The notes under the pieces are model-generated. The model did no database searches. It saw only the letters and a program-made list of their open reading frames with translations, and was not told the origin of the DNA. The position numbers and the translations under genes were made by a program. Shown piece by piece: positions 26,498 to 38,648 of a DNA stretch of 64,000 nucleotides (positions within the stretch are counted from its first letter, which is position 1; each line of letters opens with the position of its first letter). This stretch comes from Myxococcales bacterium (GTDB lineage: Bacteria > Myxococcota_A > Polyangia > Haliangiales > Haliangiaceae). Location of the stretch: contig JAEUJY010000141.1 of NCBI GenBank assembly GCA_016794525.1, forward strand, positions 1 through 64,000, given 5' to 3'.

Positions 26498-26797
26498 CTA
26501 CCCGCCGGCGAGCGGCGCCAGCAGGTAGAGCGTGTCGCCGTCGGCCAGCGTGCGGCCGCCGTGCTCGTCGACCGGGCAGCGCTCGCCGTTCCACATCAGC
26601 GTGTGGGCCAGGTGCGGGCTGTGGGCCAGCGCCGCGGCCAGCGGCAGGCGGTAGCGATCGCCGTCGGCGACCAGCTGCGCCAGCGTCGTGCCCGGCGGCA
26701 GCGCGACCCGCTCGTCGACGTCGTACCAACCGTCGCCGATGCGCCCGCGGATCAGCACGTGGACGGTGATCGTGGCCTTGCGCTTGCCGAACCACAT
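26498..26797 (-). CDS. MoaD/ThiS-like sulfur carrier, 99 aa
   Basis: The sequence follows the beta-grasp pattern: [10 protein letters not shown], then [13 protein letters not shown], and it ends [12 protein letters not shown]. The C-terminal Gly-Gly is the site adenylated and thiocarboxylated in MoaD-type carriers. It lies 4 nt downstream of an aldehyde:ferredoxin oxidoreductase gene, a pairing seen for tungsten pterin enzymes. It probably supplies dithiolene sulfur for that enzyme's cofactor. No MoaE, MoeB or other moa gene is in the window. Confidence 0.8.
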
Positions 26798-26801
26798 CGC
26801 G

Positions 26802-28835
26802 TCAGGCGACGAACTCGCCGAGCAGCTCGGCGATGCCCAGCTCCTGCGCCCGCGCCTTGCTCACCCGCCCGCTGGTGGTGTCCCAGTGCATGTGCCGGTA
26901 GTAGTCGTCGCGCAGGACCGGCAGCGCGACCCGCACGCCCTTGAGCGGGCCGGCGGTGAGGTTGCCGTCGCCCTCGCCCATCATCCGCGGGTGCGCGGTG
27001 AAGTCGCCGGGGCGCAGGCCCTCGCGCCAGTTGAACGCGGCGCGCAGGTTCTGGATCCGCTCGCCCGCGCGCAACAGCTCGGCCTCGTCGATGCCCCAGC
27101 CGGTGACGGTGTTGACCAGCTCGAGCCACGGCAGCCGGCCGGTGAGCATCGTGAACATGCACAGCCCCAGGCCGTTCATCGCCTGGTGCGCGTTCGAGAA
27201 GTGCGCCTGGGCCTGGCCCTTGCCCTTGTCGCTCTTCCACTTCACCTCGACCTCGCCCTTCGGCGCGCCGGCCGGCAGGGAGAAGCCGACGCCGAAGGTC
27301 TCGTTCCACGACGCCGAGCCGGCGGTGTGGCGGCCCGGCGTCGGATCGGCGGTGTAGGTCACGCCCATCAGCGAGGTGAAGCGCGGGTCGTGGTAGGCGG
27401 GCTCGGAGCCGTGGACGTGGACCGCGAACTGCTCGGAGCCCTTGCCGAGGTGCTTGGCCGCGCGCTCGACGCCGTGGGCCAGCCACGCGCCGCAGCCGCT
27501 GCCCTCGCCCATCTTGATCGTCAGCGCCAGCGCCGCGGCGCCGTTGCCCCAGCGCAGGTCGACGCCGTCGAGGTCGTCCTTGGTGAGCAGGCCGCGCTCG
27601 ACCGCCTCGCACACCCAGCCCAGCGTCGCCGACGAGCTCACCGCGTCCATGCCGTAGCGGTTGCACGCGTCGTGGCACGCCGTGACCAGCTCGAGATCGT
27701 CGTTGAGCAGGTTGGCGCCGAAGCCGCAGATCGTCTCGTAGTCGGGGCGGCGCACGTCCTCGAGCCCCTTGTCCTTGACCCGGACGATGCCCTTGCACGG
27801 CATCGGGCAGTCGCCGCACGACAGCTTCTTGGTGACGTACTTGTCGACCTCCTTGCCGTCGAGCTTGTAGCCCTGCTTGCCGAGCGGGAAGTCGCGGCTG
27901 CCGACGCCCTTCCAGTTCATCACCGGCGCGTCGCCGTTCTCGACCGACAGGCTGACCGCGCCGGTGGTGCCGCGATCGGCCCACAGCTGCCGCATCGCCG
28001 CGACCGGCGCCTGGATCTTCATGCCCCGCCGCGGGAACAGCCGGTACAGCCACGCCAGCCACCGCTTGGGCTTGCCCATCCACACGAAGAACCGCATGAA
28101 CACGCCGATCGAGCTCTTGTACTCGTCGGTGATGCGCTTGGCGACCGCCTTCCACTCCTTGGGCTGGGCGATCGGCACCTCGCCCGAGCCGCCCACGACG
28201 ATCGCCTTCAGGTTCTTCGAGCCGTAGATCGCGCCGAAGCCCTGGCGGCCGAACGCGTGGTAGCGGTCGTTCATCACCGAGGCGATGCGCGCCTGGCGCT
28301 CGCCGGCCGGGCCGATCGCGCTGACGCCGACCTCGCGCTTGCCGCCGAACCGGCGCTTGAGCTCGTCGAACACCGGCGGGATCTGCTGGCCCCACAGCTC
28401 GTCGGCGGGCGCGAAGCTGACCTCGTCGTCCTTGATCACCAAGAGCGTCGGCCGCGCCGCCTTGCCGCGCACGACCAGCGCGTCGAAGCCGGCGTGGCGC
28501 AGGTGCGACGCCACCGAGCCGCCCGAGTTGGAGTCGGCCCAGGTGTTGGTCAGCGGCGACTTGCCGACGATCTGGATGCGCCCGGAGAACGGCGTCGCGG
28601 TGCCGGTCAGGAGCCCCGAGCAGATCGCGAAGCACGCCTCGGGGGCGAGCGGATCGGTGCCGGCCGGGTAGTGCTTCCACATCAGCCACGCGCCGAGGCC
28701 GTAGCCGCCGAGGAACTGCTTGTAGACGGCCTCGTCGACCTCCTCGACCCAGTGGCGCTCGGTCGACAGATCGACGTGGAGGACGCGGCCGAGAGAGCCG
28801 AAACGCGAGACGGTCGCCGGTGCGGGGTCGGTCAC
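26802..28835 (-). CDS. Aldehyde:ferredoxin oxidoreductase family (tungsten pterin) enzyme
   Basis: This 677-residue protein has the AOR layout: [10 protein letters not shown] near the N-terminus and the pterin motif [17 protein letters not shown] (about 391-407). The [4Fe-4S] ligands are Cys340, Cys343, Cys347 (CGDCPMPC) and Cys559 (GLGLC), with spacing like P. furiosus AOR. The family oxidises aldehydes, or reduces acids, with ferredoxin. A basic-hydrophobic insert near 245-270 may be a partner or membrane contact. The GTG start follows a CACAAT hexamer by 6 nt. Paired with a MoaD-like carrier. Confidence 0.88.
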
Positions 28836-28841
28836 GCGCCT

Positions 28842-28893
28842 ATTGTGTGCGCTGGTCCGCCGGGTGGGAAGCGGCCACGGTCTGGCATATGCT
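28842..28893. promoter_or_regulatory. Divergent promoters, AOR gene / Gly-rich lipoprotein gene
   Basis: Minus strand: CACAAT (28842-28847) 6 nt before GTG 28835, with TTCCCA 17 bp upstream as a -35. Plus strand: TATGCT (28888-28893) 7 nt before ATG 28901. Neither gene has a Shine-Dalgarno. Confidence 0.45.
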
Positions 28894-28900
28894 GAGCGCC

Positions 28901-30214
28901 ATGTTGCGGTCCGTCCTCGCCTTGTCGCTGCTGTCGGCGGCGGGATGCACGTTCTCGCCGGCCGGCGGCGACGACGGCGTCTGTACGCCGGGCTGCGACG
29001 GCGCCGCCCTCACCACCTGCCCCGGCGGCGCGACCGGCGAGCCGGTGGTCGAGACCTGCGCCGAGGTGTGCGTCGCGTCGCCCGCGCCGCACTGCGGGCG
29101 GTGGATGCCGTCGAACCTCGACGCCGCGGCGCTCGACCCGCTCTTGACCGAGGCCACCGCGTCGCTGGCGCTCGCGCCCGGCGCGGACTACGCGATCAAC
29201 ACCGACACCGGCGCGATCACGGTCGCCGGCACCGGCGTCGCGGTGCCGCGGCTCGGCACCGCGTTCGCGCTGCGCGAGCCCAAGATGGCGGTGCTGGTGG
29301 TGGACGACTTCACGCTGCCGGCCGGCGTCACGCTGACCGGCACCGGCACCCGCGCGCTGATCGTCGTCGCCGAGGGCGACATCGAGCTCGACGGCGTCCT
29401 CGATTTCGGGCCCGGCTGCGTGATCGGCGCCGAGGGCGACACCAAGCGCTGCGCCGGCCCCGGCGGCGGCAACGGCGGCAAGATGGGCACCGTCGCGCAG
29501 GGCTGCGCCGGCGGCCACAACGGCGCCGGCGAGGGCGGCGGCGCCGGCGGCGGCTTCGGCACCAAGGGCGGCCTCGGCGGCCTGGGCTCGAGCGCGGCCA
29601 CCGCCGACGAGCTCGACAACTGCGGCAACACCGCGGCCAACCCGCTGGTGCCGCTGATCGGTGGCAGCGGCGGCGGCGCCGGCGCGATGATGAGCATGGC
29701 CAGCGGCGGCGGCGGCGGCGGCGCGGTGCAGCTGTCGGCGTTCGGGCGGCTGCGGCTGGCCGGGACCGCGACCGATCGCGCGACGATCTACGTCGGCGGC
29801 GCCGGCGGCCAGGGCTCGAGCGGCAACCACGGCGGCGGCGGCGGCGGCGCGGGCGGCGGCATCTTGCTCGAGGGCGCCACCGTCGAGCTGGTCGAGGCGG
29901 CGCTGATCGCCAGCGGCGGCGGCGGCGGCGGCGGGCGCGGCGGGCAGCCCGGCAGCGACGGGCGCTTCGACGGCGGCGTGGCGCCGGGCGGCACCAGCAC
30001 CGGCGGCGCGGGCGACGGCGGCGACGGCGCGGTCAACGCGAGCCCCGCCGAGAACGGCGCGGCGGGCGGCGGCGGCGGCGGCACCGACGGCGGCGGCGGT
30101 GGCGGCGGCGGGCTGGGCCGGATCCGGATCAACACCACGTCGGGTCAGTTCACGGTGCCGACGTCGACGCTGACCCAGGGCGTGCTGTCGACCGGACGCG
30201 TCCCGGGCGTGTGA
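28901..30214 (+). CDS. Glycine-rich surface lipoprotein, 437 aa
   Basis: The start at 28901 is set by TATGCT 7 nt upstream and gives a clean lipoprotein signal ([15 protein letters not shown]). A Cys-rich N-terminal domain of about 60 residues is followed by a region with beta-helix-like strands ([35 protein letters not shown]). Then come some 230 residues of GGxGGxGG-type sequence broken by short valine strands. This is reminiscent of PE_PGRS or polyglycine-helix surface proteins. A wall-facing or adhesive role is possible; nothing catalytic is seen. Confidence 0.65.
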
Positions 30215-30242: not shown

Positions 30243-31142
30243 TCACGGCGCGGGCGCGAGCTCGATGCGCGCCGCCTTGCGCAGCGCGGTCAGCGCCTGG
30301 GCCCGCGCGACCTGCGCGGCCTCGTCGCCGAGCCGCAGCTCGATCGCCGGCCGGGCTCGCTCGAAGGTCTGCTCGTCGTCGCGCTGGCGATCGATCACGC
30401 GGATGATCCAGAAGCGCCCGCCGGGCCCGGCGATGACGCCGCTGGTGCCGCCGACCGCGAGCCCCGGCAGCGTCGTCGACCACGCCGGCGGCAGCTGGTT
30501 CCACGCCAGGTAGCCGACGTCCCACGGCGTCGTGCCCGGGGGCGCGTTGAGCACGCGCTGCGCGACCGCCTCGAACGTCGCGCCGCCGGCCAGCTCGGCC
30601 GCCGCCGCCGTGGCCTTGGCGCGATCGCGGAACAAGATCTGCCAGACGTGGACCCGCGTGCGGATCTCGTCGACGTGCTGGTCGTAGAACGCCTGCACCG
30701 CGGCGGGCGTCACCGCCGCGCGCGCCGCGACGTCCTTGTCGAACAGCGACGCCAGCCGCTGGCGCCGCACGCTGGCCAGCTGCGCCTCGAGCTTGGCCTG
30801 CTCCTCCTTGAACCCGGGGTCGGCGTCGAGCCCGAGCGCCACCGCGCGCTGCGCCGCCAGCTCCTGATCGATCAGCCCCGCCAGCACCTGCGCGCGATCG
30901 GGCGCCACGCCGGAGCCGCCGCCGTGCGGGTTCTCGGCGCGCGCCGCGGTCCCCATCGCCAGCGCCAGCTCGGCCGCGCTGATCGCCGCGCCGTTCACGG
31001 TCGCCGGCGCCACCGTCGCGGTGGGCGTGGCGGTCGTCGCAGCCCCACCATGGCTCGCCCATTTCGGCGCCGGCTCGTCACAGCCCGCCGCCATCGCCAC
31101 CACCAGCATCAACGGGATCCCTCGTCTGGTCAGGTCGTGCAC
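30243..31142 (-). CDS. Parvulin-type (PpiC/SurA-like) lipoprotein
   Basis: From the GTG at 31142 the protein is 299 residues with lipobox VAMAAGC. A helical N-terminal region (ATVNGAAISAAELALAMG, then VLAGLIDQELAAQRAVALGL) matches SurA/PrsA chaperone domains. The C-terminal parvulin-like domain contains VHVWQILFRDRAKA, AELAGGATFEAVAQRV, GYLAWNQLPP and GRFWIIRVIDRQ. It probably helps fold exported proteins, and lies next to the decaheme cytochrome gene on the same strand. CAGGTT lies 6 nt before the chosen GTG; the longer frame adds an unlikely basic N-terminus. Confidence 0.75.
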   Translation of the reverse strand: MHDLTRRGIPLMLVVAMAAGCDEPAPKWASHGGAATTATPTATVAPATVNGAAISAAELALAMGTAARAENPHGGGSGVAPDRAQVLAGLIDQELAAQRAVALGLDADPGFKEEQAKLEAQLASVRRQRLASLFDKDVAARAAVTPAAVQAFYDQHVDEIRTRVHVWQILFRDRAKATAAAAELAGGATFEAVAQRVLNAPPGTTPWDVGYLAWNQLPPAWSTTLPGLAVGGTSGVIAGPGGRFWIIRVIDRQRDDEQTFERARPAIELRLGDEAAQVARAQALTALRKAARIELAPAP

Positions 31143-31383
31143 GCCGCCAACCTGCCACGCCGCCACCACGACCGGCAACACCCCCGCCGCCGCCACTCCG
31201 AAACGCAGCGAGGCCGCCTCCCGGCGACCTCGCACTCATTCTTGCCATCCGATCGTGCTGGCTTGCTCCCCATCCTCGCGACACCCGCACGGGGTGCGCG
31301 GGAATCCGGTCCCCGATGTGCGCTCTCGCGTTTCCGGTGGGGGCCCCACGTCTTGTGGGGGAGGGTCTTTGCGAAAGACCCTC
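31143..31383 (-). other. Intergenic region between cytochrome and parvulin genes
   Basis: No gene is seen here. On the minus strand it begins with compound element E directly behind the cytochrome stop, and ends with the CAGGTT (31149-31154) hexamer before the parvulin GTG. The middle, 31250-31310, has a further GC hairpin (GCAC..GGTGC). Confidence 0.5.
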
Positions 31384-31384
31384 C
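31318..31384 (-). repeat. Compound 3'-end double-hairpin element, copy E
   Basis: Hairpin 1 pairs GGAGGGTCTTT (31360-31370) with AAAGACCCTCC (31374-31384); its outer base is part of the cytochrome stop codon. Hairpin 2 pairs CCCCAC (31344-31349) with GTGGGG (31355-31360). The minus-strand tail reads CCCCCACCGGAAACGCGAGA. The stem sequence differs from copies A and B with pairing maintained. Confidence 0.78.
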
Positions 31385-34257
31385 TAATGACAGGTCTTGC
31401 AGGCCTCGTTCTCGTCGCCGCTCCACGGATCGGCCGGGGTCGGGTCGTCGGTGTTGAGCTTCATGTGGGTCATCGCGGCGTCGCTGTCGTGGCAGCCCGA
31501 GCACGGCAGGCGGCTCGGCTCGCTGGCCCAGGTGCCGCTGGTGTCGCCGTCGACGTGGCACGACTGGCAGTTGCGCACGTCCTGCGGGAACGTGATGTCC
31601 CAGTTGCGGCCGGTGGTCGGGTCGCCGTTCGAGTAGTCGACCGTGCGCAGCGGGTAGTTGAGGCTCGAGCCGTAGTGGATGGCGTGGACGCGGCGGTTGA
31701 TCGGCTTGGCGCCGACCCAGGCGCCGAGGCCGGTGGCGTCGGTGGCGGCCTGCGGCAGGTAGTCGTGGCAGGCCACGCACTGGTCGATCGCGGTCTGATC
31801 GAAGATCTTGTTGTGGCGCGACGGGTCGAGGATGAAGCCGTCGAAGTCACCGGCGGTGCCCGCCGTGGTCTGGTGGCACGAGTCGCAGTTGTTGGCGACC
31901 TGCTTCTCCTCGGTGGCGCTCTTCACCTTGAACGTGACCTTCTTGACCGACGGGGTGACGTAGTCGGTGGCGCTGACGCGACCGAGCTGGCCGACCTCGA
32001 GGTTGATCACGTAGGTGCCGGCCGGCGCGTCGGTCACGGGGTCGAGCGCGTACTCGATGTGATCGGCGAAGCGCGTGATCTTGCTGTCGGTCGTCGCCGT
32101 GAGCTGGTTACCGGCGGTGAAGCCCGACGGCATCTTCACGGTCAGGTCGCCGGCGAACACGTTGGTCGCGACCACGCTGGCCTGCAGCTGGATGCCGCGG
32201 ACCTTGCCGAGGTTGCGGCTGCGGATGGCGAGCTTGCCGGCCTCGCTCCAGGCGATGGCGCGCGCGGTGAAGGCGGCGTTGGCGTTGAGCCAGGTCACCA
32301 GCTCGGCGGTGGTGCACGCGGCGAGGCTGGCGCAGGTGGCCGCCGCGACCGGCACGGTGATGACGCCCGAGAGCCGCGTGCCCCAGTCGTCGGCGAGCGT
32401 GACCGCCACGCCCTGGTCGACCTTGAGCACGAGGTTGGCGCCAGCCGCGCTGAGGTCCCACGGCCCGGTGGTCGCGCTGATGATCTGCGCGCGGGCGGCG
32501 GTGGTGAGCTGCGGCTGGGCGCGGCCGCGCGGGCCGGTGACGAAGAAGCCCGAGTTGGCGAACTTGCCGTCGGTGTCGGCGTCGCACAGCACCGGCGAGA
32601 CCGTGTGCTTGCAGCCCTGGGCGGTGCCCGACTGGATCAGGTGGTTGATCGGCGTGCCGTTGCGCTTGATGACGATCGACACCACCGGCGCCTCGGTGCC
32701 GCGGTAGTCGGTGCCGTTGGCCGGCGGGGTCATCGACACGTCGAACGTGAACTCGGGGACGTTGCGCGCGTCGAACAGCGGCGCGTTGACGTCGGTGGTG
32801 GTGCGGTCGTGGATGCGCTCGAGCGGCACCAGCGAGCCGGTCGCCGGGTGGCAGACCTGGCAGGCGTTGTCGGGTTCGGGGCCCGGCTGGTGGTTGGCGC
32901 CGGTGACGAAGTTGACGTTGTCGTGGCACGAGCCGCACGCCTCGGCGCCCGGGGTGGTCTTCCACACGTCGGAGTCGGCGCCGGTGCCGTCGTGGCACTT
33001 GGTGCAGTTGTTGACCTGCGCCGGGAACCCGACCTTGTGCCACTCCAGCTTGGCGTTGCCGAAGCCCCAGATCGCGTACTCGCCGTTGTCGGCGGTCGCC
33101 CACGGGTTGCCGTCGGGACCGGCCACGGTCGGCAGCTCACCGCCGGCGTGGATCTTGTGGATCATCACCTTGAAGTCGAGGGTCTGGCCGCCCTGCGCGT
33201 CCTTCGAGCCGGGCGCGTGGCAGGTCACGCAGTTGTCGACGCTCAGGCGGTCGCCACCGTGGCCGTGGAAGTCGGCGCCGTGGCACTGCTTGCAGGCGGT
33301 GGTGCGGACGATGTCGCGGGTCGCGGCGACGGTGGTGCCGTCGGGCACGAAGTCGAAGGTCGCGGTGGCGGTGGCGCCGGCGTGGCCGCCCATCATCACC
33401 GACACGCGGTGCTTCTTGCCGCGCTCGTAGGTCACCGGGTTGCCGGCGACGACGATGTTCGAGATGTTGGTGGCGAACCGGTAGGTGTAGGTGCCGTCAC
33501 CGTGGTTGGTGAACGTGCCGTTGCCCTCGCGGTAGGCCTGCGCGGCCTGGGTGCCGGCCGGGTTCGGGAAGCCGGCGCCGCTCACGGTCTCGGTGCGGTA
33601 GATGTACGGCTCCCACTTGGTCCGGTTGCCGCTGCCCGGCGCCGGGATCGGCGTGACGGTCAGCTTGGCGATGTTGGCGGTGACGGCCGCGATGTCGGTG
33701 ACGGCGGTGCCGCCCGCGCGGGTGACCCGGAAGTCGACGGTGACGACGCCGGCCGCGTCGGCCGTCGCGCCGGTGATCACCGCGTTGGCGATGTACTTGC
33801 CGTTGGCGTACTCGCCGGTCGACTGCATGAAGTCTTCGCCGTGGCGGTCGGTGATGAGCGCGCTGGCCGCGTTCTGACCGTCGCGGACGGTGACGTGCGT
33901 GCCGTCCTCGCAGGTGATGGTCTTGGTGCCGTCGCCGTTGTCGGCGACCGTGCACGACGTGCCGGCTGTGCCATTGTTGACGGTGACCGTCGTGCCGTCC
34001 TCGCACGCGATGGTCTTGGTGCCATCCGGATTGTCGGTGACCGTGCACGACGATCCCGGCGTGCCGGGCGTGCCGGGCGTGCCGGGCGTGCCCGGGGGCA
34101 GCGTCACCGAGGTGCCGTCGTCACAGCGCACCGTGGCGCTGCCGTCGGCGTTGGCCGTGACGGAACACGAGCTGCCGTCCTCTCCGGAACACGCTGTGGC
34201 GAGCAGCGCAGCCGAGGCCACGAAGAGTGTTGCGAGTGCCAGCCGGATGGAGCGCAT
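31384..34257 (-). CDS. Decaheme OmcA/MtrC-type surface c-type cytochrome
   Basis: This 957-residue lipoprotein (LLATAC) carries exactly ten CXXCH motifs in two groups of five (CKQCH, CVTCH, CTKCH, CGSCH, CQVCH; CDSCH, CVACH, CQSCH, CSGCH, CKTCH). Two beta domains separate them, the OmcA/MtrC layout. Such proteins pass electrons across the outer surface to minerals or partners. The last heme motif is the very C-terminus. After the lipobox come three tandem repeats of about 30 residues (SCTVxDNxDGTKTIxCEDGT) split by four PGT triplets. No MtrA/MtrB partner is nearby. AAGGA lies 8 nt before ATG. Confidence 0.9.
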   Translation of the reverse strand: MRSIRLALATLFVASAALLATACSGEDGSSCSVTANADGSATVRCDDGTSVTLPPGTPGTPGTPGTPGSSCTVTDNPDGTKTIACEDGTTVTVNNGTAGTSCTVADNGDGTKTITCEDGTHVTVRDGQNAASALITDRHGEDFMQSTGEYANGKYIANAVITGATADAAGVVTVDFRVTRAGGTAVTDIAAVTANIAKLTVTPIPAPGSGNRTKWEPYIYRTETVSGAGFPNPAGTQAAQAYREGNGTFTNHGDGTYTYRFATNISNIVVAGNPVTYERGKKHRVSVMMGGHAGATATATFDFVPDGTTVAATRDIVRTTACKQCHGADFHGHGGDRLSVDNCVTCHAPGSKDAQGGQTLDFKVMIHKIHAGGELPTVAGPDGNPWATADNGEYAIWGFGNAKLEWHKVGFPAQVNNCTKCHDGTGADSDVWKTTPGAEACGSCHDNVNFVTGANHQPGPEPDNACQVCHPATGSLVPLERIHDRTTTDVNAPLFDARNVPEFTFDVSMTPPANGTDYRGTEAPVVSIVIKRNGTPINHLIQSGTAQGCKHTVSPVLCDADTDGKFANSGFFVTGPRGRAQPQLTTAARAQIISATTGPWDLSAAGANLVLKVDQGVAVTLADDWGTRLSGVITVPVAAATCASLAACTTAELVTWLNANAAFTARAIAWSEAGKLAIRSRNLGKVRGIQLQASVVATNVFAGDLTVKMPSGFTAGNQLTATTDSKITRFADHIEYALDPVTDAPAGTYVINLEVGQLGRVSATDYVTPSVKKVTFKVKSATEEKQVANNCDSCHQTTAGTAGDFDGFILDPSRHNKIFDQTAIDQCVACHDYLPQAATDATGLGAWVGAKPINRRVHAIHYGSSLNYPLRTVDYSNGDPTTGRNWDITFPQDVRNCQSCHVDGDTSGTWASEPSRLPCSGCHDSDAAMTHMKLNTDDPTPADPWSGDENEACKTCH
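34058..34093. repeat. Four tandem 9-bp units coding PGT triplets in the cytochrome gene
   Basis: GGCGTGCCG units repeat four times and encode a short collagen-like Gly-x-Pro stretch between two cysteine-bearing repeats near the protein's N-terminus. Confidence 0.8.
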
Positions 34258-34444: not shown

Positions 34445-35422
34445 TCAGGACAGCGCGATCGCCGCCGCGACGGCGACGGCGACCAGCACCAGCGCGACCA
34501 GCGCGATCACCATGCCCGTGCGCGTGTCGCCGCCGCTGGACGGGCGTTCACCCGCGGCGGGTGACGGCATCGGCGGCGCCGGCGCCACCGGCGCCCCGCC
34601 ACCGCGGACAGTGGCCACGACCTCGGCCAGCGAGCCGACCCGGCGCTCGCGCTCCTTCTCGAGCATGCGGCCGATCAGCGGCCCGACGAACGGCGGCAGG
34701 GTCGCGGGCAACCGCTCGAGCGGCGGCGGCTGCGTGAGGTGCGCCTGCATCTGCTCGAACAGGTTGCGCCCGCTGAACGGCGGCTGGCCGACGCACAGCT
34801 CGAAGAACACGCAGCCGAGCGCGTAGACGTCGGCGCGGTGGTCGACCAGCTTGGCGTTGCGGAACTGCTCGGGCGCCATGTACGTCGCGGTGCCCATCTG
34901 GGTGCCGGTCGCGGTCTTGACCGAGCCGTCCTCGACCTTGGCGATGCCGAAATCGAGCACGCGCACGCGCGGCCGCTGCGGATCGAGCGGGTCGGGCACG
35001 AGGAACACGTTCTCGGGCTTGAGGTCGCGGTGGATGATCCGCTCGGCGTGGGCCGCGGCGACGGTGTCGGCCAGCTGATCCATCACCGCCAGCGCGGTGG
35101 GCGCCGGCAGCGGGCCGCGCTTCCACAACACCTCGCGCAGCGTCTCGCCCACCACCAGCTCCATGATGATGCACAGCTCGCCGGTCGGCGCGACCATCAC
35201 CTCGAAGACGTCGACGACGCCGGGGTGGCGGATCCGCCCCATCGCCTTGGCCTCGTTCATGAAGCGCTCGACGATGCCGGGCGAGCTCGAGAACTCGGGG
35301 AGCAGGACCTTGATCGCGACCTGGCGGCCGACGTTGGTGTCCTCGGCGGCGTAGACCCGGGCCATGCCGCCCTCGCCGAGCGGACGCAGCACGCGGTAGC
35401 GCCCGATCATCTGCCCGACCAT
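34445..35422 (-). CDS. Hanks-type Ser/Thr protein kinase, membrane anchored
   Basis: This 325-residue protein has all kinase landmarks: the glycine loop [10 protein letters not shown] (15-24), Lys38 in [14 protein letters not shown] (about 128), LDFGIAK (about 150), and [10 protein letters not shown] for the activation segment. The C-terminus is a Pro/Ser linker plus one membrane helix ([21 protein letters not shown]), with no extracellular sensor domain after it. It starts 5 nt after the stop of the FHA/coiled-coil gene, so the FHA protein is a likely substrate or partner. Confidence 0.92.
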
Positions 35423-35427
35423 GGCCG

Positions 35428-38574
<3,147 letters not shown>

Positions 38575-38648
38575 GCCCGGACGCGAGGCTACCATGGGGC
38601 AAATCCGCTCGCGCGGGGCGGCGGCGCCGATCTAGACGACCGGCGCGG

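Follow-up and report, generated by a model that had tools for sequence, protein, structure and literature searches.

Does a decaheme cytochrome without porin genes beside it belong to an outer-membrane electron conduit, and if so, through what would its electrons pass? This question is raised by a gene in a stretch of 64,000 nucleotides from a Myxococcales bacterium (contig JAEUJY010000141.1), which we analysed at its full length and call the window. The genome is a 9.8-Mb assembly that is 97% complete, and its nearest named relative at the cytochrome locus is a Kofleriaceae MAG. The locus contains the following features, all on the minus strand.

31384..34257, minus: decaheme c-type cytochrome lipoprotein of the OmcA/MtrC family, 957 aa (TIGR03507, PF22112/PF22113, PDB OmcA 4lmh, Foldseek OmcA)
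34189..34257, minus: signal peptide and lipobox LLATA/C23, residues 1-23 (sequence; lipid-anchor motif by eye)
33880..34170, minus: putative stalk, three Cys-pair repeats and a PGT run (regular-expression match)
33340..33786, minus: domain I, beta domain, PF22112, residues 158-306 (Pfam; beta strands in model)
32836..33318, minus: domain II, hemes 1-5, PF22113, residues 314-474 (Pfam)
31918..32760, minus: enlarged domain III, residues 500-780 (model and heme 5 to heme 6 spacing)
32584..32613, minus: CX8C pair C549/C558 in domain III (sequence comparison)
31387..31914, minus: domain IV, hemes 6-10, residues 782-957, last motif CKTCH (sequence, Pfam)
31360..31384, minus: 11-bp hairpin directly 3' of the cytochrome stop codon, without T run (sequence and fold)
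30243..31142, minus: parvulin-like lipoprotein, Rotamase_2 (PF13145, E 6e-16; start GTG at 31142 inferred from the lipobox MAAGC)

A divergent cytochrome of the OmcA/MtrC family

The initial annotation had reported a reading frame with ten CXXCH motifs in a 5+5 arrangement, the tenth at the C-terminus of the protein, and a lipobox; all of this is exact, including coordinates, strand and length. The motifs are CKQCH, CVTCH, CTKCH, CGSCH and CQVCH in the first set and CDSCH, CVACH, CQSCH, CSGCH and CKTCH in the second. In 2000 residue shuffles of the protein, the mean number of motifs was 0.03 and the maximum 2, compared to 10 in the real sequence. The lipobox LLATAC is relaxed at position -3, where it has Ala. 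The ATG is preceded by AAGGA, which resembles a ribosome-binding site; a scan for sigma-70 promoters gave no result, and the hairpin behind the stop codon received no terminator call.

Membership in the OmcA/MtrC family, which had been suggested from the motifs, is strongly supported, as family models, sequence matches and structure search all agree. The curated OmcA/MtrC model TIGR03507 scores 316.5 bits (cut-off 209.3), the OmcA/MtrC domains PF22112 and PF22113 match in Pfam, and the sequence matches in the PDB are OmcA, MtrF, UndA and MtrC (OmcA 4lmh, E 3e-29). Foldseek places OmcA on top (E 3.7e-16), and the first sixteen matches are all OmcA, MtrC, UndA or MtrF chains; the AlphaFold model used here is of low confidence (mean pLDDT 47.7) and usable only in parts of domains I and III. 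According to Pfam and to the strands modelled in domain III, two beta domains alternate with two domains of five CXXCH motifs each. Nine His residues outside these motifs (H333, 367, 370, 456, 483, 815, 858, 861 and 931) are each kept by 113 or more of the 122 family members. Five of these distal-type positions lie in domain II and the other four in domain IV; they match what would be expected for bis-His hemes, and a tenth candidate, H283, is kept in 95 of the 122.

Such a membership is in itself ordinary. The window protein shares with OmcA, MtrC, MtrF and UndA (TIGR03507) the 5+5 motifs, the alternating beta and pentaheme domains, the lipobox and the conserved distal His; a Cys pair in domain III is present as well, though in other alignment columns than in classical members. 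It differs from them in a domain III that is about 80-170 residues longer, in a long repeat stalk, in lacking an MtrA/MtrB partner in its genome and in having a conserved parvulin-like neighbour.

The N-terminal stretch contains three repeats of the form SC[ST]V...C.DGT (residues 30-55, 70-95 and 101-126), each of 26 residues with one Cys pair, and a PGT run of about five triplets lies between the first two (about residues 54-68). Both elements had been pointed out in the initial annotation and were recovered by regular-expression match. Its description of a collagen-like spacer holds in part: the PGT triplets exist, but there are merely about five of them in the window cytochrome, and long Gly-X-Y runs occur in relatives (27 consecutive triplets in L054, 23 in L188 and 33 in L190). 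The second OmcA/MtrC protein of the same genome has a Gly-X-Y stalk too. Across the branch, the stretch before domain I comprises about 95 to 320 residues and carries Cys repeats, Gly-X-Y runs or both. Relatives swap the one for the other, whereas domains I-IV remain conserved, which indirectly supports the idea of a stalk. Judging from this pattern of length and composition, the repeats probably act as a spacer, which would raise the heme domains off the membrane.

A branch marked by a larger domain III and a parvulin-like neighbour

By scanning genome contigs and searching 317 genomes of the class, we found 18 distinct proteins that score above 1000 bits against a profile of the first eight; these eight were used to build the profile and therefore match by construction. 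The next family member scores 378 bits. The spacing between heme 5 and heme 6 is 325 residues in the window cytochrome and 323-598 across the branch, compared to roughly 155-245 in most classical members, and the model shows a partly confident beta/alpha insert in domain III at about residues 590-700. In a quick ML tree of 122 rows (SH-aLRT, no bootstrap, midpoint root), the 18 branch members group together, and the clade that unites them with a sister group of five members has full SH-aLRT support.

A domain III Cys pair, spaced as CX4-16C, is common to all 18 members and takes the form CX8C in the window. Outer-membrane cytochromes of Shewanella have a CX8-15C disulfide in domain III, and the CX8C disulfide of Shewanella MtrC controls flavin binding (PMC4486940). 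However, the pair of the branch and those of the classical members fall into different alignment columns, so that the CX8C is not supported as a homologue of the MtrC disulfide. A role as a redox or flavin switch, as in Shewanella MtrC, is thus an analogy that the window protein may follow.

The adjacent parvulin lipoprotein gene, also mentioned in the initial annotation, lies directly downstream of the cytochrome gene on the same strand; its PPIC-type domain scores 59.8 bits (PF13145, cut-off 27). In a family-profile search, this family adjoins the cytochrome gene in 15 of the 18 branch members, including a gammaproteobacterial MAG. At E<=1e-5 it was not detected in 72 other genome loci (L058-L129), some of which are cut by contig ends. 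The counts for both genes rest on six-frame HMM searches, as gene calling had placed genes of several loci (71-74% GC) on the wrong strand. The term orphan that had been given to the cytochrome is therefore right as far as mtrA and mtrB nearby are concerned, but it overlooks a conserved partner as well as a second OmcA/MtrC gene in a candidate conduit elsewhere in the genome.

In an alignment with the structures of PrsA and HP_0175, the two usual active-site His of the parvulin-like protein are replaced by Gln and Trp. These residues stand at the His positions of the HIL and YHII motifs in all members of the family found, where parvulins are known to carry their active-site His. The simplest reading of these sequences is a dedicated, perhaps non-catalytic, foldase, that is, a periplasmic foldase-like lipoprotein that would aid folding or surface delivery of the cytochrome. 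A peptidyl-prolyl isomerase gene is known from operons of 16- and 26-heme cytochromes (PMC5539420), so that genes of this type accompany large multiheme cytochromes there as well; these are other cytochromes, however, and the parvulin of the window lacks both usual active-site His.

The gene could instead be a neighbour without functional link, or encode an ordinary prolyl isomerase that serves many envelope proteins. Envelope parvulins are common, and the gene was not found beside three branch members (L051, L057 and L189). The distance between the two genes is 4-67 bp in L183, L184 and L187 (four bases in L183 and L184); in the window it is 241 bp and includes a strong hairpin, so that the coupling of the genes may be looser there. 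Nevertheless, it is one specific family that recurs in 15 of the 18 members, even in the gammaproteobacterial MAG, and this family is present in no classical OmcA/MtrC locus that we fetched. We thus consider an unlinked parvulin rather unlikely and retain the dedicated foldase.

MtrAB and candidate electron conduits beyond it

That no mtrA or mtrB partner accompanies the cytochrome, as first reported from the window, extends to the whole genome. The called neighbours in the window include no multiheme set, and neither family model exceeds its cut-off anywhere in the assembly. The MtrB/PioB porin model PF11854 has no match at E<=1, which at 97% completeness makes its absence likely, and the best match to the MtrA/DmsE-type model TIGR03508 reaches 21.3 bits (cut-off 192.2).

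Among the relatives, L053 (a MAG labelled Gammaproteobacteria, 45% GC) resembles the MtrCAB conduit: its gene order is mtrA, mtrB, branch decaheme and parvulin, with 300 bits for MtrA (TIGR03508, cut-off 192) and 540 bits for MtrB (TIGR03509, cut-off 240). The window's genome is unlike MtrCAB in this respect, as are six other genomes tested besides L053, none of which contains MtrB. In L056 (6220-9224), the branch cytochrome is directly preceded by cytochrome c assembly genes of the ResB and CcsA types, and the upstream genes in L057 (2951-5931) match these assembly-type genes in size and start. Further genes of L057 encode a 4-heme protein, followed by an iron-sulfur protein, NrfD, cytochromes with 9 and 24 hemes, a member of the barrel family and a cytochrome with 13 hemes. 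The pair of cytochrome and parvulin lies among unrelated genes in most branch members.

The genome contains a second multiheme locus with an OmcA/MtrC gene, on contig C120.

C120:11540-19800 (L013): OmcA/MtrC, 10-heme CxxxxCH lipoprotein, NapC-like protein, small membrane protein, 382-aa exported protein, 12- and 27-heme cytochromes

Its OmcA/MtrC protein is classical (391.8 bits), and the window cytochrome is a further, divergent copy. The NapC/NirT-like protein stays below its family cut-off. The 382-aa exported protein has no match in Pfam or NCBIfam; the model of its relative in L126 has 22 strands (mean pLDDT 72, pTM 0.62) and aligns by VIA-align to receptor barrels of the outer membrane, with Z up to 19.0 (Fiu; rmsd 4.3 over 348 residues). 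MtrB is not among the VIA-align rows listed for this model, which leaves room for a likeness to MtrB, and a relation to MtrB is not detectable in sequence. Members of this predicted barrel family occur in 24 of 32 genomes searched, and in many genomes they share a contig with OmcA/MtrC matches, a few kb apart. L126, L083, L073 and L125 have sets like the one on C120, as do many of the family's genomes. No relative of the barrel was found in three genomes with the branch gene, namely G026 (fragmented), G035 (same locus) and G038, nor in the MtrB-bearing G037. We regard the C120 cluster as a candidate for an MtrAB-independent conduit, in which both the barrel and the passage of electrons are predicted.

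More multiheme sets lie on contigs C3, C24, C99, C11, C81 and C136. A single gene run on C3 (40325-45500, L015) encodes cytochromes with 20 and 10 hemes, an exported protein of 543 aa and lipoproteins with 5 and 8 hemes. On contig C24 (L019:8408-11181), a 13-heme cytochrome adjoins an exported protein of 533 aa; this arrangement recalls the two-gene sets of Anaeromyxobacter, which consist of a porin and a 12-14-heme Pcc cytochrome (PMC4245776). Like the Pcc clusters of Geobacter and Anaeromyxobacter (PMC4245776), C120 and C24 pair an exported protein, in C120 a predicted barrel, with 12-13-heme cytochromes. Unlike them, C120 adds OmcA/MtrC, a NapC-like protein and a cytochrome with 27 hemes, and the likeness is one of gene content. 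The cytochromes encoded on contigs C99 and C11 (L020, L026) are very large and have 28, 23 and 26 CXXCH motifs.

Electron supply and location of the cytochrome

On the surface of Shewanella, MtrC hands electrons to OmcA (PMC12304082). There is thus a model for a decaheme that sits on the surface with no porin of its own, and by this parallel we interpret the window protein as an OmcA-like cytochrome at the end of the chain. As the genome lacks MtrB, its electrons most likely come from a different conduit. The reading that we favour, and hold to be moderately probable, is that of a terminal cytochrome on the cell surface, helped by a chaperone of its own and fed by the C120 conduit. What the sequences show is its family and architecture, the conserved pairing, the lack of MtrB and the existence of the C120 cluster; its location, chaperone, switch and wiring are what we infer. 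The ten bis-His hemes would form a chain along which electrons travel between a conduit in the outer membrane and extracellular acceptors or donors. Electrons would arrive via C120, with its NapC-like protein for quinol oxidation, its 10-, 12- and 27-heme cytochromes, its predicted 22-strand barrel and its classical OmcA/MtrC protein. C120 is the most plausible feed, and another conduit could take its place. Synteny does not support this wiring, because the two OmcA/MtrC genes are on different contigs and the branch pair mostly lies among unrelated genes. The genomes G026, G035 and G038, which have the branch gene but gave no relative of the C120 barrel, also speak against it. The cytochrome would be matured with its parvulin-like partner and then exported by type II secretion, which is the proposed export route of MtrC and OmcA (PMC1974784); the T2SS secretin exceeds its cut-off twice in the genome. 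The extracellular electron transfer that the initial annotation proposed would follow from this reading.

One alternative is that the window protein plugs directly into another multiheme set, C3 or C24, independently of C120. These clusters exist in the genome, and the porin and Pcc sets of Anaeromyxobacter (PMC4245776) provide a parallel. However, neither the 543-aa nor the 533-aa exported protein matches Pfam or NCBIfam, their barrel nature is unsupported, and the 543-aa protein has no detectable sequence relation to the C120 barrel; we find this direct link fairly improbable. Still less likely is a decaheme lipoprotein on the inner leaflet of the outer membrane that faces the periplasm and acts as electron store or shuttle among periplasmic cytochromes instead of as surface reductase, since the missing porin genes, a parvulin partner that is itself a predicted envelope lipoprotein and the wealth of multiheme cytochromes in the genome would suit it, but the OmcA/MtrC domain plan, the collagen-like or repeat stalks of relatives and the mtrAB neighbours in L053 argue against it.

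A bolder reading would combine two linked novelties. The first would be an OmcA/MtrC branch with its own dedicated, catalytically altered parvulin chaperone, the two genes passing as a unit between lineages; the second would be a family-wide conduit unrelated to MtrAB (22-strand barrel, 12/13- and 24-36-heme cytochromes, classical OmcA/MtrC) that feeds the branch cytochrome. We put forward this combination tentatively, with somewhat less than even confidence. In the literature searched, whose coverage is incomplete, we found no description of the enlarged-domain branch with its altered parvulin or of the family-wide barrel cluster. Myxobacteria are best known as predators. If true, a surface decaheme together with a conserved candidate conduit other than MtrAB would extend the lifestyle of this family to an exchange of electrons with minerals or with other cells. 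The recurrent pairing with one altered parvulin offers a starting point for tests of how lipoproteins that are very large and rich in hemes are folded, loaded and exported.

Lastly, we note the other genes around the pair. An aldehyde ferredoxin oxidoreductase gene lies at 26498-28835 (minus), adjoined by a small gene that weakly resembles ThiS, below cut-off. Between it and the parvulin gene, on the opposite strand, a Gly-rich putative lipoprotein without family match is encoded at 28889-30214 (plus). Directly upstream of the cytochrome and on the same strand, 34445-38595 (minus) encodes a Ser/Thr kinase as well as an FHA/coiled-coil protein of 1055 aa.
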